Part shown: positions 7,965-52,579 of the stretch, piece after piece
Layout: every line of letters begins with the position of its first letter
How positions within the stretch are numbered: position 1 is the first letter of the stretch
Position numbers and translations under genes: made by a program
Notes under the pieces: generated by a model
Told to the model about the DNA's origin: nothing
The model's database searches: none
Seen by the model: the letters and a program-made list of their open reading frames with translations, nothing else
Source of the DNA: Melanopsichium pennsylvanicum
Lineage: Eukaryota > Basidiomycota > Ustilaginomycetes > Ustilaginales
Length of the DNA: 64,000 bases
Direction of reading: 5' to 3'
NCBI GenBank assembly: GCA_900208305.1
Contig: OAPG01000017.1
Span: 62,001 to 126,000, forward strand

Positions 7965-9227
7965 TTATTCTAGGTTCCAAGTGTACACTCTCTGACCACC
8001 ATTTCTACCCCTTTTGGCACCACTTTCTTCTGGTCCATTCATCAACACAACTTTGTTTCCATTTGCATTGTTTCGTTGTTGAAATGTATCCCTTTCCACT
8101 AATGTCGCTTTACCATCTTTTCTAATTAGAATCACTGTACTCGTTCGTGTTGCATACCAATCTGCTAATTTTTTTTCGCCTTGCTCCATCAAATTGAATT
8201 GTAATGGTCGAATCAGAACGCTATTCCTCAATTCAAATCGCTTCGTAGGGGCTGGGTTGGAACAAGTCCAAAGCACATCGAACAATTTTTCCACTAATTC
8301 TTGTTCGATTTTTGAACAAGATAATGATGATGTCGAGGGTGTATCGTCAGTAAAATGGGTTTGATTGTGCGAGTAGGAGGAGAGGACGTCGAGAAAAGTT
8401 TGAGTTCCAGAAGTGACTTTAAACCAAGGTTCTGAAAGGATACTGTTTGACATGCCTCCCGGTACAAACACTTTTTCCTCTGCTCCTGCTCCTGCTACTG
8501 GTTCTGATGTTTCTGCTACTCTTGATGGTTTTGGTGGTAATGTCGGATTTGATGCAGTTTTGTTGGATACAAACCCAAGATGCTCCTCTTTATCACGATT
8601 GTCCTCATTCTTCTTGCTTTTAATGTTGTTTGGTAAAAAAATCTGTGGAACACTATCCTTTGCCAAACTTCCATCACCATTTCTATTCGTCACATACCCA
8701 ACCACACTCCCTTCCCCCTTGAATGACGATATCGAACCTACTAAAAGATTAAAACCTGGATAAATCTCCCCCTTTTTTCCCACTTGTTTCAAATACTCTT
8801 CCACTTGAGCCTTTACTTGCTGAACCCCACCATGTTTCTTCTGTTTTGACTGTGAAATGAGCCAATCCCTAACGAGCGCACCACGACTCTCATACGCATC
8901 CAGTCCAGGAGGTAATGCACATGGTGGTGCATTTTCGGTAAAGTTTGTCAAAGTTGCAAATGAACCGTTGCGAGTAACGCCTAACCACGTTCCTCCTCCT
9001 GTTGCATCTCTTGCACTCAAGATCCTATACTCGTCTGTTTTGACACCTTTCGAAGAAGAAACCCAAGATTCCGAGGTGGAATTGTTGGAGGAAGAGCAAG
9101 ATTTGGAAGCAGAGGAAAAATCGTGCCAACAAGCAGGTAAAGTTGGACGTGAGACAAACTCGTCTCGATTCGAAGCAATCACCAAGTCGTAGTGCGGATC
9201 GGTTGTGGTCCAAAAGATCACGCACAT
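7965..9227 (-). CDS. TANGO2: NRDE-family protein, TANGO2 homologue
   Basis: A 420-residue intron-free frame starting at the ATG at 9227. It begins MCVIFWTTTDPHYDLVIASNRDEFVSRPT; Cys2 next to the start Met and the N-R-D-E signature at residues 20-23 define the NRDE/TANGO2 family. Further family blocks are 'GGGTWLGVTRNGSFATLTNF' (after about residue 75), 'SRGALVRDWL' and 'GFNLLVG'. An insertion of roughly 100 residues rich in Lys, Glu, Ser and Pro (about 200-275) makes it longer than the usual 270-300 residues. The C-terminal part has the expected 'RTSTVILIRKDGKATLVERD' strand pair. The cellular role in fungi is unsettled; animal TANGO2 has been linked to secretory organisation and to haem or lipid handling. 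The gene is more AT-rich than its neighbours. Confidence 0.88.
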   Translation of the reverse strand: MCVIFWTTTDPHYDLVIASNRDEFVSRPTLPACWHDFSSASKSCSSSNNSTSESWVSSSKGVKTDEYRILSARDATGGGTWLGVTRNGSFATLTNFTENAPPCALPPGLDAYESRGALVRDWLISQSKQKKHGGVQQVKAQVEEYLKQVGKKGEIYPGFNLLVGSISSFKGEGSVVGYVTNRNGDGSLAKDSVPQIFLPNNIKSKKNEDNRDKEEHLGFVSNKTASNPTLPPKPSRVAETSEPVAGAGAEEKVFVPGGMSNSILSEPWFKVTSGTQTFLDVLSSYSHNQTHFTDDTPSTSSLSCSKIEQELVEKLFDVLWTCSNPAPTKRFELRNSVLIRPLQFNLMEQGEKKLADWYATRTSTVILIRKDGKATLVERDTFQQRNNANGNKVVLMNGPEESGAKRGRNGGQRVYTWNLE

Positions 9228-43551: not shown

Positions 43552-43690
43552 GCATTTGAACTGCTTGTAATCATTCTTTGGGACTGATGAACGGGCCCCC
43601 TGTCTGACAACTATCCATCTGCCTCAGCTCTGCTCTCACCATCTGAAGATCACCACCATTCAACATCAATGGAAACACATTCATTTCATC

Positions 43691-44100
43691 ATGTCAGCAC
43701 CAAAGAAGAAGCACACTGTTGTGCCCAACAATTTTAGAGCACAGATCTGCAACCTAGTGCTTCACCAGGGCCACACCAAGGCTGAAGTTGCTTGGCTCCA
43801 CAAGCTACCCTACACAGCAGTGATTAGCTTTGTGAAGAAATGTAACAACACTGAGGAAATGCCTGTGCTTTGGAGGAAAGGTGGGGCATTCCAAGGTACC
43901 CAGGGTCAACCAAGAGCATCTCAACTGCATGCATGCTTATTTTGGTAAGCACCCTGGCGTCACCATCATTGAAATCAAGGAAGACATCAAGCAAAAAAAA
44001 CAGCCTTGACTTGCCAGTCTCTGCTAAACAGAACTGCCTTCATATCCGTCTTCACTCGACCCTCAAGCGCACTGGAATCAAACACAATTGTCACAATAGT
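43691..44100 (+). pseudogene. DNA transposase, N-terminal half (interrupted)
   Basis: The ATG at 43691 starts a helix-turn-helix-like segment ('RAQICNLVLHQGHTKAEVAWLHKLPYTAVISFVKKC') typical of Tc1/mariner and related transposases. The frame ends at a stop near 43946. Related coding continues in another frame to the retroelement insertion ('LDLPVSAKQNCLHIRLHSTLKRTGIKH', up to 44100), so at least one frameshift predates or accompanies the insertion; an A run near 43993 is the likely place. The other half is at 51775-52393. Confidence 0.7.
44096..44100. other. 5-bp target site duplication ATAGT (left copy)
   Basis: ATAGT directly precedes the 5' LTR and reappears directly after the 3' LTR at 51770-51774, marking integrase-mediated insertion into the DNA transposon. 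Confidence 0.95.
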
Positions 44101-44530
44101 TGTTAGTGCCTACCAACCGGAGTCCAAAGAGGGGGTGCTCGGCCCCCCTCCCGATTGAGCGATCGTCGTGATCGGGCCCCGACCGACCCTCTCCGGACCC
44201 CTCGCAGCGGAGCGGTCGGCCTGACACGATCCTCCTACCGCCCAACCGCGGCTGGTCCCTCCGTACGTAGGATACGACCGTCGGCAACCTAACATTGTAA
44301 CGCCGCGGTGGGAAGTGACCGATAGTTCCTGTACCTTACCACCCCGCCCCCGCCTGACATGAGGTTGCCTCCGGACCTCGTCGCATGTATTACTTAGTTA
44401 GCTCTATAGCAACGCAGTAGTGTGCTCTGACCCCCGACCGCCTGTGTTGCCCCGCCTACGACCTCTCCGTACCCGTAGCCTCCATCCCGGCTGTAGCCGC
44501 CCGCGGTATCTAGACCCTACAGCCTTAACA
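44101..44530 (+). repeat. 5' LTR
   Basis: Starts 'tgttagtgcctacc' and ends 'cagccttaaca'. Identical to 51340-51769 except at 44228 (G here, A at 51467). Confidence 0.97.
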
Positions 44531-44545
44531 TTACATGCAACCTCC
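44531..44545 (+). other. primer-binding region, non-canonical
   Basis: The 15 bases after the 5' LTR (ttacatgcaacctcc) do not start with TGG, as a tRNA 3'-end primer site would. 'gcaacctc' (44537-44544) is the exact complement of 'gaggttgc' at 44361-44368 inside the LTR, which would suit Tf1/sushi-type self-priming if transcription starts near there. Confidence 0.4.
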
Positions 44546-44569
44546 CCACGGGACGACGTCGTAACCAAA

Positions 44570-45805
44570 ATGAGTACACGCTCCAACCGACGAAACCAAA
44601 CGGACGCCCCCCCCCAAGCGGAGGGAGACGCCCCCACCATCTCCCCCAGCGGAGACGAGCCCGCCAGCGTTGTTGCACCCTCGGGCGAACCGCCCGCCGC
44701 CCTGACCACCTTGGTCCAAGGGCAAGTGGATATCCTGGCGCTTCTGCGTGAAACCTCTGAACAACAGCGGCGCATTACCGCTCTGCTAGAGGCCGCCTTC
44801 TTCCCCAGGGAGGATCAACCTAGACCGGAGTCTTCCCAGCACTACCAAGGAGCAACCGCTGCCCAGGTTCCCCCGCCAACCGTAGCCCCCGTCTACGTGG
44901 AGGCCGCGCCCCGCAAGCCAGAGATTCGACTCCAGGCTCCGGAATGGGACAGCAGCCAAGACAAACTGGAGGACTTCTTGGATCAATGCGAACTCAACTT
45001 CGAGGCTAATCCCTCCAAGTTTCCGACGGATGCCCGTCGCATCATGTTTGCCATCGGCAACATGACGGGCAAACCACAAACCCGCATCCGCAATGTGCGA
45101 CAACAGGAGGGGGAGGATCCGCCCTGGATGAGCTCCTGGAGGGCCTTTTGCGCCGACCTCCGTCGCGTCCATGGCGATCCCGACCCCAGCTACACCGCAC
45201 GCCTCCAACTGAATGCCCTCCGCCAGAAGGGATCGGTATCAGAGCACGCGGCGGAGTTCATGTCGCTGACGGCCAAATCGCACCTGACCGACCAGCAGCA
45301 GGCGTTGATGCTGTTCGAACAAAGCCTCCGGCCGCGCCTACGGGAAAAGCTCACCCACGTGCCGATGACCGACATCCGTGACTTCATCAACGCCGCCATT
45401 GTCACGGAGCGCCGGATGCAGGTGATACAGGAGGCCACGACAAGACCCTTGGAGTCACAGCTGCGACACCGACCGCCCCTCCCAGCCGTGACGGCCAAAC
45501 GAGAGCCTCCGGAGGGACCCCGCAAAATGGAACGACCTCCACTACCGGCCAAGGACCCTACGCGTGATGCGGCGGAACGCCTCCGCCAGCACCGACGGAC
45601 CAACGGGCAGTGCTTTGGCTGCGGTGGCAGCAACCATTTGGCCCGTGACTGCCCGAAGGCACCCCAAACACAAACTCTCCGGGCACATGCTATTTCATTC
45701 GACAACGATTCCGGGACTATACTCGTCAACCCCATGGATGACGGGTCAGCCTCCAACCCCGACAGTGACCTATCGGATTTGGAGGATCCCCCGGAGGGAA
45801 ACTAA
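44570..45805 (+). CDS. gag: Gag polyprotein of the chromovirus
   Basis: A 411-residue frame from the ATG at 44570. The frame is open upstream into the LTR, but the first ATG after the LTR fits best. The N-terminal 90 residues are Pro/Ala/Thr-rich. A capsid (Retrotrans_gag) domain follows, with 'WDSSQDKLEDFLDQCEL' and, further on, 'WRAFCADLRRVHGDPD' and 'SVSEHAAEFMSL'. A CCHC zinc knuckle 'CFGCGGSNHLARDC' lies near residues 347-360 and is the nucleocapsid RNA-binding motif. It ends at TAA 45803-45805, directly after the slippery heptamer GGGAAAC. The frame is intact, so this copy could still supply particles. Confidence 0.93.
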   Translation: MSTRSNRRNQTDAPPQAEGDAPTISPSGDEPASVVAPSGEPPAALTTLVQGQVDILALLRETSEQQRRITALLEAAFFPREDQPRPESSQHYQGATAAQVPPPTVAPVYVEAAPRKPEIRLQAPEWDSSQDKLEDFLDQCELNFEANPSKFPTDARRIMFAIGNMTGKPQTRIRNVRQQEGEDPPWMSSWRAFCADLRRVHGDPDPSYTARLQLNALRQKGSVSEHAAEFMSLTAKSHLTDQQQALMLFEQSLRPRLREKLTHVPMTDIRDFINAAIVTERRMQVIQEATTRPLESQLRHRPPLPAVTAKREPPEGPRKMERPPLPAKDPTRDAAERLRQHRRTNGQCFGCGGSNHLARDCPKAPQTQTLRAHAISFDNDSGTILVNPMDDGSASNPDSDLSDLEDPPEGN

Positions 45806-45840
45806 GGGTCGATGGGTTCCTTCGGTCCGAACCCATCGAC
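45796..45840 (+). promoter_or_regulatory. -1 ribosomal frameshift signal at the gag-pol junction
   Basis: The heptamer G GGA AAC (45796-45802) lies in the gag frame just before its TAA. After a 5-base spacer comes a perfect 12-bp hairpin: gtcgatgggttc (45808-45819) pairs with gaacccatcgac (45829-45840) around a 9-base loop. The pol frame is the -1 frame and is open from 45769. Heptamer class, spacing and stem all match known -1 signals. Confidence 0.9.
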
Positions 45841-47224
45841 AACCTAAGCCAGCTCCGGGTGCTCGCCGCAGCATTCTGGGCAGCCCACCGGACCGACACT
45901 CCCGTCGTGGAGCAAGAGGGATCCGTTCTCCGGATCCATCGACACCCTACCTTACCAACCTACAAATGCTTGGTAAGCGTCGGCGACACGCAAGGCCTTG
46001 CCTTGCTCGATACCGGCGCCACCGCTTCTTTCATTACTCCCGAAATGGTCGCAACAGCCAACATTCCTACCCACTCCCTCCGTAAATCCGTCCACGCCAC
46101 ATTCCTCCAGGGCATGTCGGCCGCCATCAGTCGCCACGCGGCGGTGGATATCATCATCAACAACCACTGCATCACCTCTCGCCACCGACTCTTCATCACC
46201 CCCATGACCTCCCACGACGTGCTGTTGGGAATGGATTGGATCGAGGCCGCCAGGCCGGAGCCAAACTATACCCTCCGTACGTGGGACCTCCGGGTCCCCC
46301 ACACCGTCACGGTGCCCTCCAACCCCAAAATCGAAAAGAACGAACTCCACAACTTGGTCGGCCGGCGACAGCTGGTCTCCACTGAGGAGGACCTGCTGGT
46401 CCTCCCAGAACCGGAAGAGGAGCTACTGCCCCTCCGAGCTTCCGCGACCGACCTCGCCGTCCTACCGCCAGAGTACCGCGAGTACGCCGACGTCTTCGAC
46501 GCCGAGAGGGCCAACCAATTGCCTCCCCACCGCCCACACGACCACGAGATCAACCTGGAGGCTGGCAAAACCCCTCCCTACGGCGCACTCTACTCCCTGT
46601 CGCACCGCGAACAAGAGGAGCTCCGGAACTACCTCCGGAAGATGCAGGCCATTGGCTTCATCCGACCGTCAAGTAGCCAAGCTGCCGCGCCCCTTCTTTT
46701 TGTACCAAAGAAGGACGGTCGCCTCCGGCCGTGTGTGGACTACCGCGCCCTCAACGCCATCACCGTCAAGGATTGCTACCCGATCCCCCTCATCTCCGAA
46801 CACCTTGATCGGCTGGCGACGGCCAAGATCTTCACTAAATTTGACCTGAAGGGTGCCTACAACCTCCTCCGGATCGCCCCCGGCCACGAATGGAAGACCG
46901 CATTCCGCACGCGCTACGGCAGCTACGAGTACCTCGTCATGCCGTTTGGCCTCTGCAACGCTCCGGCGACCTTCCAACGGCTCATGAACCACGTGCTGTC
47001 GGATCTCTTAGACGTGTCCGTCATCGTATATCTGGACGACATCCTAGTCTTCTCCAACAACGAGGCCAACCACCACCACCACGTCTGCCAAGTGTTGGAT
47101 CGATTACGGAAGCATCAGCTGTATTGCGCTCCGGACAAATGCGAATTCCACACCGACTCCGTCGAGTTCCTCGGCTACCTCGTCAGTCCCGACGGCCTCT
47201 CCATGGACCCAACCAAGGTCAGTA

Positions 47225-47334
47225 CAGTCTTGGAGTGGCCGCCACCACAGTCGATCCGACAGATCCAAGTCTTCCTCGGCAGTCTTGGAGTGGCCGCCAC
47301 CACAGTCGATCCGACAGATCCAAGTCTTCCTCGG
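47225..47334 (+). repeat. 55-bp tandem duplication inside pol
   Basis: 47225-47279 and 47280-47334 are identical ('cagtcttggagtggccgcca...'). 55 is not a multiple of three, so pol is shifted. The downstream reading resumes in a different frame at 47285. Confidence 0.97.
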
Positions 47335-49581
47335 ATTCGCCAACTTCTACCGTCGCTTCATCCGCCACTATTCTCGTGTAGCGGCCCCCCTCACCGACCT
47401 CCTGAAAGGAGGAGCCTCCGGAAAGGTAGATCTGCCCCCGGAAGCAACGGCAGCCTTCAACCGGCTGAAAGAAGCGTTCACCTCTGCCCCTATCCTCCGG
47501 CACTTCTCTCCAACGCTCTACACCGTCGTCGAAACAGACGCGAGCGATGCTGTGGTAGCCGCCGTGCTGTCGCAGTGGCACCCACAGCCGGGCGCCGACG
47601 CGAGCGCCGAGCCCAACAGCCGCTCGCATACCCTCCATCCTGTGGCATACTGGTCGCGAAAGATGATCCCGGCGGAGCGTAACTACGAAATCCACGACAA
47701 GGAACTCCTGGCTATCGTAGACGCCTGCGGCGCTTGGAGACACTACCTCCATGGCCTCACCCAACCGTTCCTCATTTACACCAACCACCAAGCGCTCCAG
47801 TATTTTCAGACGAAGCGACAACTCAACCGTCGCCAAGCCCGCTGGCAAGCCGACCTGGCTGAGTTCGACTTCGTCCTCCACTACCGTCCGGGTAAGGAGG
47901 CCGTCCGCCCCGACGCTCTGAGTCGCCGGCACGACTTGTTCCCCGACGGACCGTCGCGCCCAGACCCCGCCAACCAAGCCACTCTCCTCCCTGCAAACTT
48001 GTTTGCAAGGGCAGCCGGCGTACACTCCTCGGACCCCCTGCCTACGGAGTGGATCGAAACCCTCCGGAAAGCGGCCAACCTCCCCCCAAACGTTGCCGTC
48101 CGCGATGGTGTCCCGTACACCACAGAGGGTCACGTCTACCTGCCACCCCAATTACGGGACAAGGCACTCCACCTACTGCATGACCACCCTACGGCAGGAC
48201 ATCCTGGCCGCAAGACGACCCTCCATCTCATGCGTCAACGTTTTTACTGGCCAACCATGGTGCAGGACACCGACAGCTATGTCGCCTCTTGCGCGGCCTG
48301 CCGAAGGGCAAAACACCCCCGTCACAAACCCCACGGCTACCTTCTCCCGTCGGTCCCTCCCGATCGGCCCTGGTCCACTATTACCATGGACCACATCACT
48401 GACCTCCCGCCCTCCCTTGCCAACGGCACCACCTACAACTCCATTCTCGTAGTCGTCGACCGCCTCACCAAGTTTGTGGTCTTCATTCCTGCAAACAAAA
48501 CCGATACGGCGGAGACTTTGGCGTACCAGCTCCACCGCTACGTCTTTTCATACTTTGGCCTCCCGGACACCATTGTATCTGACTGAGGAACCACGTTTGT
48601 AGCTTCCGTTTGGACGGAACTCCTCCGGGCCCTCCGGATTAAAGGGTCTTACTCGTCGGCCTACCACCCTCAAACAAATGGCCAGACCGAGCGAGCCAAC
48701 CAGACGCTGGAGTTGTTCCTCCGCTTCTATGGGCAACCCTCCTGCCGACAGCCCAGCTCGCGCTGAACCAAAGACCGTCGGCGACCACAACCATCGCCCC
48801 GGCTATAGCTTGCTTCACATTTGCACCTCGGGCACACCCCTCCATCCCCCCGGCCACCTCCAACGTTCCGTCGGCGGATAAAGTGCGGGTGTGCCAGGAC
48901 GCCATCGCCAAAGCCAACCTTGCCGTCGCGAAGTGGTTTAACCGTCGCAGGAGCGACGTCTCGTTCCGCCGGGGGGACCTGGTGCTCCTCCGTACCAAGC
49001 ACCTCCGCAGCGACCGACCCTCCCACAAGCTCTCCAACCCCCTCGCCGGCCCGTTCAAAGTCGACGAGGTGATTAGCGACCGAGCCTACCGACTCCTCCT
49101 GCCTCCGTCGTGGAAGGTCCATCCCGTCTTTCACGTACAGATGCTGGAGCCATACCCCGACGGAGTCAGGGAGTCCAGCGACGCCCCCCAACCGACTACT
49201 CTGGAGGACGACTACGCCGATTTCGAAGTCGAGGGCGTATTGGACTCCCGCCGCCGCGCCGGACGCCTACAGTACAAGGTCTCCTGGGTAGGGTACCCCC
49301 CAAGCTGGGTCCCGGCGGAAGACGTGGACCGCGCCCCGGATCTGGTTGCTGCGTACCACGCCGCGAACCCGACCAAGCCGGCCCCTACCCGGCGTTAGGC
49401 ACGGATACGAGCGACGGTCGCCGTCGGGAGACCCCCCCGCCGGAGCCAAAACCCCTCCGGTCCCCGACCTCTGGAGTAGGAGACCCGGTCGGGCTCCCCT
49501 CACCCCCACTCCCACACACGGACACACACACACGCAAGCGACAGAAAAGAAAACAAATGCATTCGAGGAGGGGCCCCGGGG

Positions 49582-51036
49582 CTAGTCCCTCAGGAAACCC
49601 TCCAACCACGCCCAGACCACGTCCACCTGCTGTCGCGTGTTCTGCGACAGTTGCTGGATCTCGCTGATCCGGCGGAGCTCTCGCTCGCCGCCGGTCCTCA
49701 GCGACTCTGTCAGCAACACCGCAGCCACGTCGGCCAGCCCCTGTTGAAATAACTCAGTCCCCTCCTGCACCCCGTGGAAGAGGGACTCGGCACGCCTTAC
49801 GGCCGCACCCAGATCCCCCAGGCCCGTAGCGGACTCCTCCGGCTGGCCTTGGGCCCGCGCCCGAGTGCGGCGCCGCTCTCGGGCAGCCTCGGCTGGACGG
49901 TCGGGGCGAGACCTAGCTCGCTTGCGAGCCGCCTCCCGCTCCCGACCCACCGCGCCCACCCGAGCCACCTCCTCCCTCAGTTCCTCCTCCTCCTCCGGGA
50001 TCTCGCCAAGTGTCCTCAGCGACAACCTGACGTTGGGGTGGGGGCGGCAACGCCGACCGACCCCTCCGGACCTCCACCTCTCAAGCAAGCACGCGTAAAC
50101 CCTCATTCGGAGGGGACCTTGGGCGCCGCCAAGTGGTGGGACTGTCGAGGAAAACAAAAGGAGGAACAAGAGTCAGCCGACCACCCAAGACATCGCGACA
50201 GACGCCCGACGGAAATACTTACCGCGCATATCCGCGTCGCAGGGTTGCCCGTGGTGCCCCTGACACCGACGGCAGCGGAGATCGCCTCCCGCCCGCTCAC
50301 AGGCAACGCCGGCGCATACGCAGGCGTAGCAATTGCCCCACGTCTCGGCCCATAGCGGGGCAAGGTCTGTCGTATCGGCCACGGAAACACAAACGTCAGT
50401 AGCGATCCCAATCAACACAGCAATGGAACAAATACTTACCATCACCAACAAGTTCCGGAGTGATCTCAATGGGAACCGAAGGACGCGACCACGGCATCAA
50501 ATTCCGGGGCGCCAGGACGAGGGAAGTGTTGGTCGATGCAGAGGAAGGAATGGCCGACGGATCGGCAGACTGTTGACGCACGGCGCGCTTGCGACGGCCC
50601 GAGTTGGCTCCCCGGGAAAGGTGAGCACGCGGAGAACGGCGCACCCCCCGGATGGGACCAGCGGAGGTCTCCGACGGCCGATCTGTTGTAATTGAAACAA
50701 GGGGGAGGGAACAAACGTCAGTAACCCATTCCACGGCACCGACCGGTGGTTGTCAGGCCCTCTGGGCCCCCACCCGCAACCGAATCACGACGGAACCACG
50801 ATCGACTCACCTCCGGAAGCGGGTAACGTTGTTGTTGTTGTTGGTGCTGTTGTTGTTGTTGCTGCTGCTGCTGTTGCCGACGCTGCCGCCGTCGCGGACG
50901 TAGGCGATGGAGGGGGAACGGTACTGACACCGGCCGACGGGTTGTCGGCCGGGGAATCCATGGGAGCGTCTACTGGTGACGACGACATTGCAAAAAAAAG
51001 ACAATCCAAGGAAGCGTCTGCTGGTGGCGACGACAT
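49582..51036 (-). CDS. antisense, spliced accessory protein of the retrotransposon with Zn2Cys6-spaced cysteine cluster
   Basis: Four minus-strand exons: 51036-50811, 50682-50440, 50366-50223 and 50141-49582 (1,173 bases, 390 residues). All three introns (128, 73 and 81 bp) are phase 1 with GTGAGT or GTAAGT donors, CTGAC or ACTGACG branch-like sequences and CAG acceptors. Retaining any of them brings a stop or a frameshift. Residues 1-75 are Ala/Thr/Pro-rich and start with a duplicated 16-residue unit. Exon 2 is basic. Exon 3 has Cys169, 172, 179, 188, 191 and 199, i.e. C-X2-C-X6-C-X8-C-X2-C-X7-C, the spacing of fungal Zn2Cys6 clusters. Exon 4 is Arg/Glu-rich and helical, probably a coiled coil. 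It lies between pol and the 3' LTR. Function unknown; nucleic-acid or chromatin binding is inference. Confidence 0.8.
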
Positions 51037-51096: not shown

Positions 51097-51108
51097 TCCT
51101 TATATCCC
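51097..51108 (-). promoter_or_regulatory. possible TATA element of the antisense gene
   Basis: The minus strand reads GGGATATAAGG about 60-70 bases before the antisense ATG at 51036, a suitable place for a TATA box inside the retroelement body. Confidence 0.35.
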
Positions 51109-51339: not shown

Positions 51340-51769
51340 TGTTAGTGCCTACCAACCGGAGTCCAAAGAGGGGGTGCTCGGCCCCCCTCCCGATTGAGCG
51401 ATCGTCGTGATCGGGCCCCGACCGACCCTCTCCGGACCCCTCGCAGCGGAGCGGTCGGCCTGACACAATCCTCCTACCGCCCAACCGCGGCTGGTCCCTC
51501 CGTACGTAGGATACGACCGTCGGCAACCTAACATTGTAACGCCGCGGTGGGAAGTGACCGATAGTTCCTGTACCTTACCACCCCGCCCCCGCCTGACATG
51601 AGGTTGCCTCCGGACCTCGTCGCATGTATTACTTAGTTAGCTCTATAGCAACGCAGTAGTGTGCTCTGACCCCCGACCGCCTGTGTTGCCCCGCCTACGA
51701 CCTCTCCGTACCCGTAGCCTCCATCCCGGCTGTAGCCGCCCGCGGTATCTAGACCCTACAGCCTTAACA
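51340..51769 (+). repeat. 3' LTR
   Basis: 430 bp, identical to the 5' LTR except for A at 51467 in place of G. TG...CA ends, followed by ATAGT. Confidence 0.97.
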
Positions 51770-51774
51770 ATAGT
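51770..51774. other. 5-bp target site duplication ATAGT (right copy)
   Basis: Same five bases as 44096-44100, directly after the 3' LTR end. Confidence 0.95.
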
Positions 51775-52393
51775 CCCAAGACTATTGCTGCTCAACAAGC
51801 ATGGGTTCCTGCAATCCAAGCCCAAGGTGAATCACTTGATGATGCTGTCTTTCTAAATAGCTTTCACCTGCAGACAACTTGCAGATTGGGTCAAGCTCCA
51901 GTTGTGTGCCATACAGAAAGGCCAACCCTACAATTGTGGTCCAAATCTTTCTCTTCTTAATGCCATCAACAGGATTGGCATCCAAGCAACCCGTGTCAAG
52001 ACTGGTGCTTGGAATGCAAGAGCAATGCTGAACTTCTTCTACACACAGGTGTTCCCTGCTTTCCAAGGCCAACATTGTACATTCTGCATGGACAACAGCT
52101 GTGACCTCATCACAGCAATCAATATGGCTGGTCATCAAGTTCTCTTCTTCCCTTTGTACATGCCTTGGTTTAACATTGCTGAAAGGGAGATTGGAAAGAT
52201 TAGGCCTTGCATATGTCAACAGGAGCTCCATGAGGCTGACAACATCAGGGTAATGATTGACCAACAGCTGAGCACCATCACACCAGCAATGGCAGTTGGT
52301 TGGATTCACAAATGTAACTGCTGGATTATGGTAGCCAAGCATGGTCACCCCCTTGGTCCTGAGCACAATGCAACTGGTGCTCTGCAGCGCTAA
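51775..52393 (+). pseudogene. DNA transposase, C-terminal DDE half (interrupted)
   Basis: Continues the transposase split at 44100. An open stretch in one frame from 51775 ('LDDAVFLNSFHLQ') ends near 51960. A second frame from about 51895 to the TAA at 52393 reads 'CGPNLSLLNAINRIGIQATRV', 'FCMDNSCDLITAI' and 'FFPLYMPWFNIAEREIGKIR'. This is the DDE_3-type core of Tc1/mariner transposases, where 'DN..' gives the second acidic residue and 'P.Y.P..N..E' the third. In the family the first catalytic Asp lies in a 'VFIDE'-like strand; here it reads 'VFLNS', so the enzyme looks dead even without the frameshift and the insertion. Confidence 0.72.
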
Positions 52394-52579
52394 GGTCTCC
52401 TTGGTAGTCCACACATTATTGATCCCACATTGTAACCACAATGCTGTCTGTACTTACGCTTGAACAATTTTGCATTTCTCTGTGACAACAAGAAAGCTCA
52501 AACCATCATATTGATTGGAATTCCAAGAGCAATGGATCGTCACAATACATTGGTAGCTTGCTATAACATTTTGTTGCAG

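Follow-up and report, generated by a model that had tools for sequence, protein, structure and literature searches.

Genes in antisense orientation between pol and the 3' long terminal repeat (LTR) have been described in Grande, RIRE2, Retand, PvRetro13 and the fungal element Boty, and the function of such accessory genes in LTR retrotransposons is considered open (PMC7264820; this and the other sources are drawn on in excerpt). As an example, GENE23 of Grande is reported to be nuclear and to have its own promoter (PMC7264820), and the antisense proteins of Retand, such as TRP28, are predicted to bind DNA (PMC11963269). In fungi, brtn of the gypsy element Boty has been cited as an antisense gene (PMC7264820, PMC8365987, PMC4227169). 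HBZ of human T-cell leukaemia virus type 1 (HTLV-1) occurs in spliced and unspliced forms, is nuclear and lowers viral expression (PMC10186651), and for Blumeria hordei there are reports of retrotransposons with spliced antisense long non-coding RNAs (lncRNAs; PMC10648671). Here we describe a locus of this type in the smut Melanopsichium pennsylvanicum (Ustilaginales), whose genome (21.1 Mb in 61 contigs) was searched. It lies in a stretch of 64,000 nucleotides, C17:62001-126000, which is called the window throughout. Judged from its sequence, a chromovirus in the window very probably has a true accessory gene that is spliced and codes for a protein. This gene is antisense to the element, is located between pol and the 3' LTR, and has three introns and a cysteine cluster.

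The kind of gene is already known and the present one is a variant of it. It resembles brtn, by description only, in being an antisense gene located after pol and before the 3' LTR of a fungal gypsy element with a chromodomain, but no cysteine cluster is mentioned in the excerpted descriptions of brtn. An earlier note on this DNA knew of no described fungal case with a Zn2Cys6-like protein; a fungal antisense gene as such is described, brtn of Boty being cited in PMC7264820 and PMC8365987. No Botrytis protein was found among the homologues of the window's protein (7994-7998 candidates with most words in common). Zhao et al. reportedly described brtn of Boty-like elements in Botrytis cinerea (2011, Virology). 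The plant aORF-3R genes (antisense additional open reading frames between pol and the 3' LTR; Grande gene23, RIRE2, PvRetro13 and Retand TRP28) agree in position and orientation, but they belong to plant hosts, Retand is not a chromovirus, and neither introns nor a cysteine cluster are mentioned for them in the excerpts. The likeness to HBZ lies in a spliced antisense gene, which in HBZ gives a nuclear product that lowers sense expression. HBZ is a basic leucine zipper protein made from a promoter in the 3' LTR, whereas the window's gene has a cysteine cluster, no Pfam family and a TATAA outside the LTR, and no homology is claimed. The B. hordei lncRNAs likewise come from fungal retrotransposons, antisense and partly spliced, but in the excerpt they are reported as non-coding, while the window's gene is under coding constraint. 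Among open-access titles and starts of abstracts, no spliced antisense gene with a cysteine cluster was found for a fungal chromovirus; nor did we find in them such a gene that combines three introns and a cysteine cluster with coding selection measured over many copies and recurrence across smut chromoviruses.

Structure of the antisense gene and its product

The gene is on the minus strand, in the interval that separates pol, ending at 49398, from the 3' LTR; this is the position and orientation of an aORF-3R. Its computed structure comprises exon 1 (226 nt, 50811-51036), encoding an Ala/Thr/Pro-rich N-terminus of low complexity; exon 2 (243 nt, 50440-50682), basic and disordered-looking; exon 3 (144 nt, 50223-50366), carrying the cysteine cluster; and exon 4 (560 nt, 49582-50141), in which an acidic segment is followed by a basic segment and a helical tail. 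The exons are separated by intron 1 (128 nt, 50683-50810, GTGAGT...CAG), intron 2 (73 nt, 50367-50439) and intron 3 (81 nt, 50142-50222), the latter two bounded by GT...CAG. All three introns are of phase 1, and the spliced exons form 390 codons and a stop. Without splicing, all three frames are interrupted. The four exons, their coordinates and junctions, the phase-1 GT-AG introns and the codon count had all been read correctly in the earlier note.

A candidate promoter, TATAA, is located outside the LTR at 51100-51104 (minus strand), about 67 nt before the first ATG. It was observed in all 35 aligned copies of the element, at a distance of some 67-76 nt upstream of the first ATG in the short reading. 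We also noticed that about 48 bp around the start codon (50980-51036) are duplicated in tandem; the duplication creates a second in-frame ATG and, judged by the TATAA distance, is present in 23 of the 35 copies.

Basic stretches are found in the protein at residues 81-120, 221-250 and 271-300, and AlphaFold2 predicts long C-terminal helices in exon 4 at a predicted local distance difference test score (pLDDT) of about 70. Six relatives of the protein were obtained among the 7994-7998 candidates, all from M. pennsylvanicum. The two ends of exon 3 have the same phase, so skipping this exon preserves the frame; an isoform without the cysteine cluster is possible on the gene models in public databases.

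The cluster covers residues 169-199 (50239-50331, minus strand) with the spacing C-x2-C-x6-C-x8-C-x2-C-x7-C plus C174. Exon 3 contains seven cysteines (residues 169, 172, 174, 179, 188, 191 and 199); the earlier note gave the spacing correctly but counted six, as C174 was skipped. All seven were found to be invariant in the 35 copies, where 14 of the 47 exon 3 positions vary, and the hypergeometric chance of seven invariant cysteines alone is about 0.07. Fungal Zn2Cys6 clusters (PF00172), which bind two zinc ions and DNA, have the spacing C-x2-C-x6-C-x5/12-C-x2-C-x6/8-C, and in the classical ones basic residues lie between the second and third cysteine. Every one of the 35 copies has six cysteines spaced in this way. 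However, the residues between C172 and C179 of the window's protein are VCAGVA, none of them basic, and the exon 3 segment matched no Pfam family at E up to 10. The name Zn2Cys6 used in the earlier note therefore suits the spacing, and not the family match or the basic residues.

Conservation among copies of the element

A search of the genome with the exon 4 protein gave at least 42 matches, 38 of them near full length, and no stop was present in 36 of these 38 among the matches listed. Forty regions of 3.1-3.3 kb were examined and 35 copies, including that of the window (L009), were aligned, five loci (L014, L029, L045, L047 and L048) being left out as partial or rearranged. The earlier note had looked to other copies for the gene at the same place, and it is there in all 35, with the spliced frame open from ATG to the usual stop in 33. 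The remaining two have a frameshift in exon 1 (L037) and a TAG at codon 304 (L039). Among the 33, L034 has lost the usual ATG and has other in-frame ATGs, and L025 has lost the first splice donor. An aORF-3R is expected to be present and coding in most copies of its family, and this gene is open in 33 of 35 copies, with a ratio of amino-acid to silent variants at 0.68 of expectation (below).

GT-AG boundaries were kept in 104 of the 105 introns, all 105 have a CTRAY motif no more than 50 nt from the acceptor, and every intron is retained in all 35 copies. Antisense introns can persist since only the antisense transcript contains them as introns, and the genomic RNA that is reverse transcribed carries their complement. 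The idea in the earlier note that they escape splicing of the genomic RNA fits this record. By this evidence a gene with several introns may survive for a long time in a retrotransposon, provided that it is antisense. The expectation that introns would drift while exons hold was also borne out. Relative to the window, two kinds of insertion or deletion occur in exons 2-4 (-9 and -18), both multiples of three, and four occur in the introns, each of 1 nt. Exon 1 has six, including a single frame-shifting one. These counts exclude the start-codon duplication.

Substitutions were analysed without L037 owing to its frameshift. The mean pairwise ratio of nonsynonymous to synonymous rates (dN/dS) over the 34 copies was 0.55 for exon 2, 0.69 for exon 3 and 0.52 for exon 4. 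Since mutation bias may mimic constraint, each variant was relocated at random to a site that matched its own in base and CpG state. For exons 2-4 the observed numbers were 103 amino-acid, 69 silent and 2 stop variants, against 116.6, 52.9 and 4.5 expected, which places the ratio of amino-acid to silent variants (N/S) at 0.68 of the spectrum-matched expectation (P=0.018). Singletons gave 0.49 of expectation (P=0.0017). Nine of ten wrong frames on exons 2 and 4 gave 0.82-1.53. For a piece of pol in 35 copies the corresponding value was 0.75 (P=0.16), with 0.53 for shared variants (P=0.048). The window's gene is one whose frame is kept while its sequence changes fast, and the N/S signal alone is modest.

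Antisense genes in two further chromovirus groups

With the end of pol as query, at least 36 close matches were obtained, together with at least 20 of a group B (41-43% identity) and at least 4 partial ones (48%), at least 35 of a group C (37-39%) and a few more distant ones. As read from their loci, groups B and C have an antisense, spliced gene in the corresponding position, which is newly described here. In group C it lies between pol and an LTR of about 1 kb. Twenty loci were examined and 15 could be aligned over the gene; L063, L064, L068, L074 and L078 were left out as incomplete or rearranged there. The gene has two exons and an intron of 71-93 nt, bounded by GTRAGT...TCCCAG in 15 of 15 copies. 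The cluster C-x2-C-x6-C-x20-C-x2-C-x7-C is present in all 13 copies that do not end before it, and the frame is open over 349-356 codons in 8 of the 15.

For group C the evidence of coding constraint is strong. Its N/S was 0.46 of expectation (141:151 observed against 192.2:93.9), a value reached in 0 of 5000 relocations, and shared variants alone gave 0.42. Stop variants numbered 3 against 8.9 expected (P=0.02). Four controls, shifted frames only and with the intron acceptor set 39 and 51 bases further downstream than the final one, gave 1.2-1.9; the true frame had 0.46 of expectation with that acceptor too. In addition, a single type of exon insertion or deletion (-21) was observed, as opposed to six in the intron, five of them frame-shifting.

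A group-C query of 339 aa, which lacks 17 residues including the third cysteine and was also used against Pfam, found 37 proteins: 25 from M. pennsylvanicum, named uncharacterized by NCBI, and 12 others (P0032-P0043; E 1e-32 to 1e-7) that include proteins of Ustilago sp. UG-2017a, U. nuda and U. hordei. The cluster of P0032 represents 75 sequences. Five of the 12 (P0032, P0034, P0035, P0036 and P0039) show the whole six-cysteine cluster with an x18 linker; the gene models of P0033 and P0040 are one cysteine short, and five of the 12 stop before the second half. These relatives are known here as annotated proteins, apart from any element context or orientation. One from U. hordei is named 'related to monocarboxylate permease' and is probably misnamed.

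For group B, P0008 as query found group-B homologues and one more distant homologue at 34-41%. Two group-B loci that were read have a 71-nt intron (GTAAGT...TAG) at the same position as in group C and an x18 linker. The shared B/C type is C-x2-C-x6-C-x18/20-C-x2-C-x7-C, against x8 in the window. Linkers of 18-20 fall outside the Zn2Cys6 spacing, and the group-C cluster segment scored 14.5 bits against PF00172, where the cut-off is 21. By coordinates the gene lies 393 bp beyond the chromodomain in at least 3 of 20 group-B matches and at least 3 of 4 partial ones. Three group-B loci that were read directly, L049, L050 and L051 (C3, C18 and C14), have repeated segments instead of such an antisense frame and are natural loss variants.

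The window's gene and the B/C type agree in position, orientation, splicing and cysteine pattern save for the linker (8 versus 18-20), but their intron positions differ. Homology between the window's and the group-C protein is not claimed, as hhalign gave E 0.35 on the copy alignments (probability under 1%) and E 0.071 with a probability of 0.8% after the Ustilago relatives were added, short of significant similarity. The likeness may stem from common descent followed by rapid change or from convergence.

Function and alternative explanations

Several observations weigh against the gene as described or against the role proposed for it below. No Pfam family scores above cut-off for the antisense protein of the window or of group C, and the structure models are poor, with a mean pLDDT of 54 for exon 4 and 40 for the group-C protein. 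Public models omit exon 3, and with it the cysteine cluster, in four cases. Exon 1, of low complexity, has a mean pairwise dN/dS of 0.99, the stop variants in exons 2-4 (2 versus 4.5 expected) are not significantly depleted (P=0.16), and the tenth wrong frame, which is on the sense strand of exon 2, gave 0.65 and so matched the true frame (0.63-0.64). Variants common to at least two copies have an N/S of 0.94, without sign of constraint, so that the older divergence looks unconstrained or diversifying. Evidence of the purifying selection for which the earlier note had hoped is weaker in the window's family than was hoped, and strong for the second type of gene. An early stop occurs in 7 of the 15 group-C copies. 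Furthermore, no antisense match is found close to at least 14 of the 20 full chromodomain matches in group B (17 by coordinates, among the matches listed).

Taken as a whole, an accessory gene whose product is a nuclear regulator of its own element is the explanation that we judge somewhat probable. The TATA box between the 3' LTR and the ATG would probably drive an antisense transcript, from which three introns would be removed to give the 390-codon protein. This product would combine a basic, disordered N-terminal half, a cysteine cluster spaced like a binuclear zinc cluster, which may hold zinc, and a charged helical tail. The step that follows is the more doubtful part, with chances a little below even: the protein would enter the nucleus and act on the DNA or chromatin of the element, so that sense transcription is set by the element's own antisense-encoded protein, in the manner of HBZ in HTLV-1. 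The basic stretches, the predicted C-terminal helices, the cysteine cluster and the precedents of GENE23 and HBZ all point in this direction.

The basic stretches and the cysteine cluster would suit equally well a real accessory protein that acts after reverse transcription, as a nuclear or chromatin-bound helper. It would guide the pre-integration complex into the nucleus or towards its target, in addition to the chromodomain that the element has. Such a role has been discussed for plant antisense frames (PMC7264820, in excerpt). We consider it unlikely here, as group-B elements without the gene have multiplied, though help in trans could be supplied, and a separate antisense promoter would suit a regulator better than a component of the particle. 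The spread of these elements without the gene also indicates that it is not needed in cis.

It is less likely still that the antisense RNA itself is what matters, as a spliced non-coding RNA or a source of double-stranded RNA that sets copy number, with the open frame incidental. The lncRNAs of B. hordei (PMC10648671, in excerpt) speak for it, as does the fact that shared variants of the window's family are weakly constrained. An incidental frame would be unconstrained, whereas here exon insertions and deletions keep the frame and intron ones do not, N/S is 0.46 (group C) and 0.68 (window's family) of expectation, and relatives at the protein level exist in Ustilago. A role of the RNA alongside the protein is possible. 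That the element captured a host gene and carries it without use is very unlikely. Introns suggest a cellular origin, and proteins with cysteine clusters are a common fungal gene type, but genome searches with exons 2 and 4 gave whole or fragmentary copies of the element, and no free-standing gene that had clearly diverged (among the matches listed, with flanks partly read), and the frame is open in 33 of 35 copies and recurs in other groups. Finally, chance joining of open frames by three apparent introns in a GC-rich stretch, for which the 122 stop-to-stop frames of at least 120 aa within the window could be cited, is in our view refuted by all the conservation tests and the like gene in other groups.

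If the gene does encode a regulator, a wider reading can be proposed, which we regard as doubtful in full. Smut chromoviruses would have repeatedly evolved, or kept since before the split of Melanopsichium and Ustilago, a spliced antisense zinc-cluster regulator that controls the expression of the element, comparable in fungi to HBZ. The antisense position would shield its introns, and its loss would have allowed most of group B to multiply without it. Within a single 21-Mb genome there are dozens of close carrier copies, a second group with stronger constraint and a third group mostly without the gene. Because carriers and non-carriers occur together, function is testable by comparing their expression, silencing and insertion.

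Host element and gene models

The element of the window is a chromovirus, that is, a Ty3/gypsy element with a chromodomain, and has LTRs and Pfam matches to gag, protease, RVT_1, RT_RNaseH, Integrase_H2C2, SH3_Tf2-1 and Chromo. Its coding strand is the plus strand. The two LTRs of 430 bp (44101-44530 and 51340-51769) differ at one position and are flanked by a 5-bp duplication, ATAGT (44096-44100 before the 5' LTR and 51770-51774 after the 3' LTR). The gag frame (44570-45805, start codon from sequence) matches Retrotrans_gag and Ty3_capsid, with a weak CCHC match. It is followed by pol in broken pieces (45769-49398, from open frames and Pfam): protease and reverse transcriptase in frame 45769-47682, RNase H and integrase H2C2 in frame 47048-48586, and SH3 and chromodomain at 48643-49398. 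Three lesions separate the pol frames, namely a frame change at about 47.2-47.3 kb, a TGA ending at 48586 and a frame change at about 48.7 kb, in agreement with the remark in the earlier note that the antisense frame is intact while pol is broken three times. An open pol frame of 1198 aa was found in 15 of the 36 close matches to the pol end (among the matches listed).

An older stretch resembling a DNA transposon surrounds the element (43571-44100 and 51770-52453), and its frame 51857-52393 has a DDE_3 match below the Pfam cut-off (23.2 versus 28.6 bits). Eight LTR bases (GAGGTTGC, 44361-44368) are complementary to the stretch right behind the 5' LTR (44531-44560), a short match that may be due to chance. 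Such complementarity is as in self-priming of the Tf1 type.

Public annotation lists these antisense genes as uncharacterized fungal proteins. Their models conflict on introns (P0001-P0004, P0010, P0012 and P0042), and two group-C models miss part of the cysteine cluster. One model, P0006 (MEPE_01710), fuses antisense exons 2 and 3 to an SNase-Tudor protein, presumably SND1/Tudor-SN, at L056 (C3:502306-507300). This locus and L055 (C3:186017-191000) are 99.9% identical over 4221 bp and diverge at the junction, so a duplicated host stretch seemingly landed beside a broken copy of the element.
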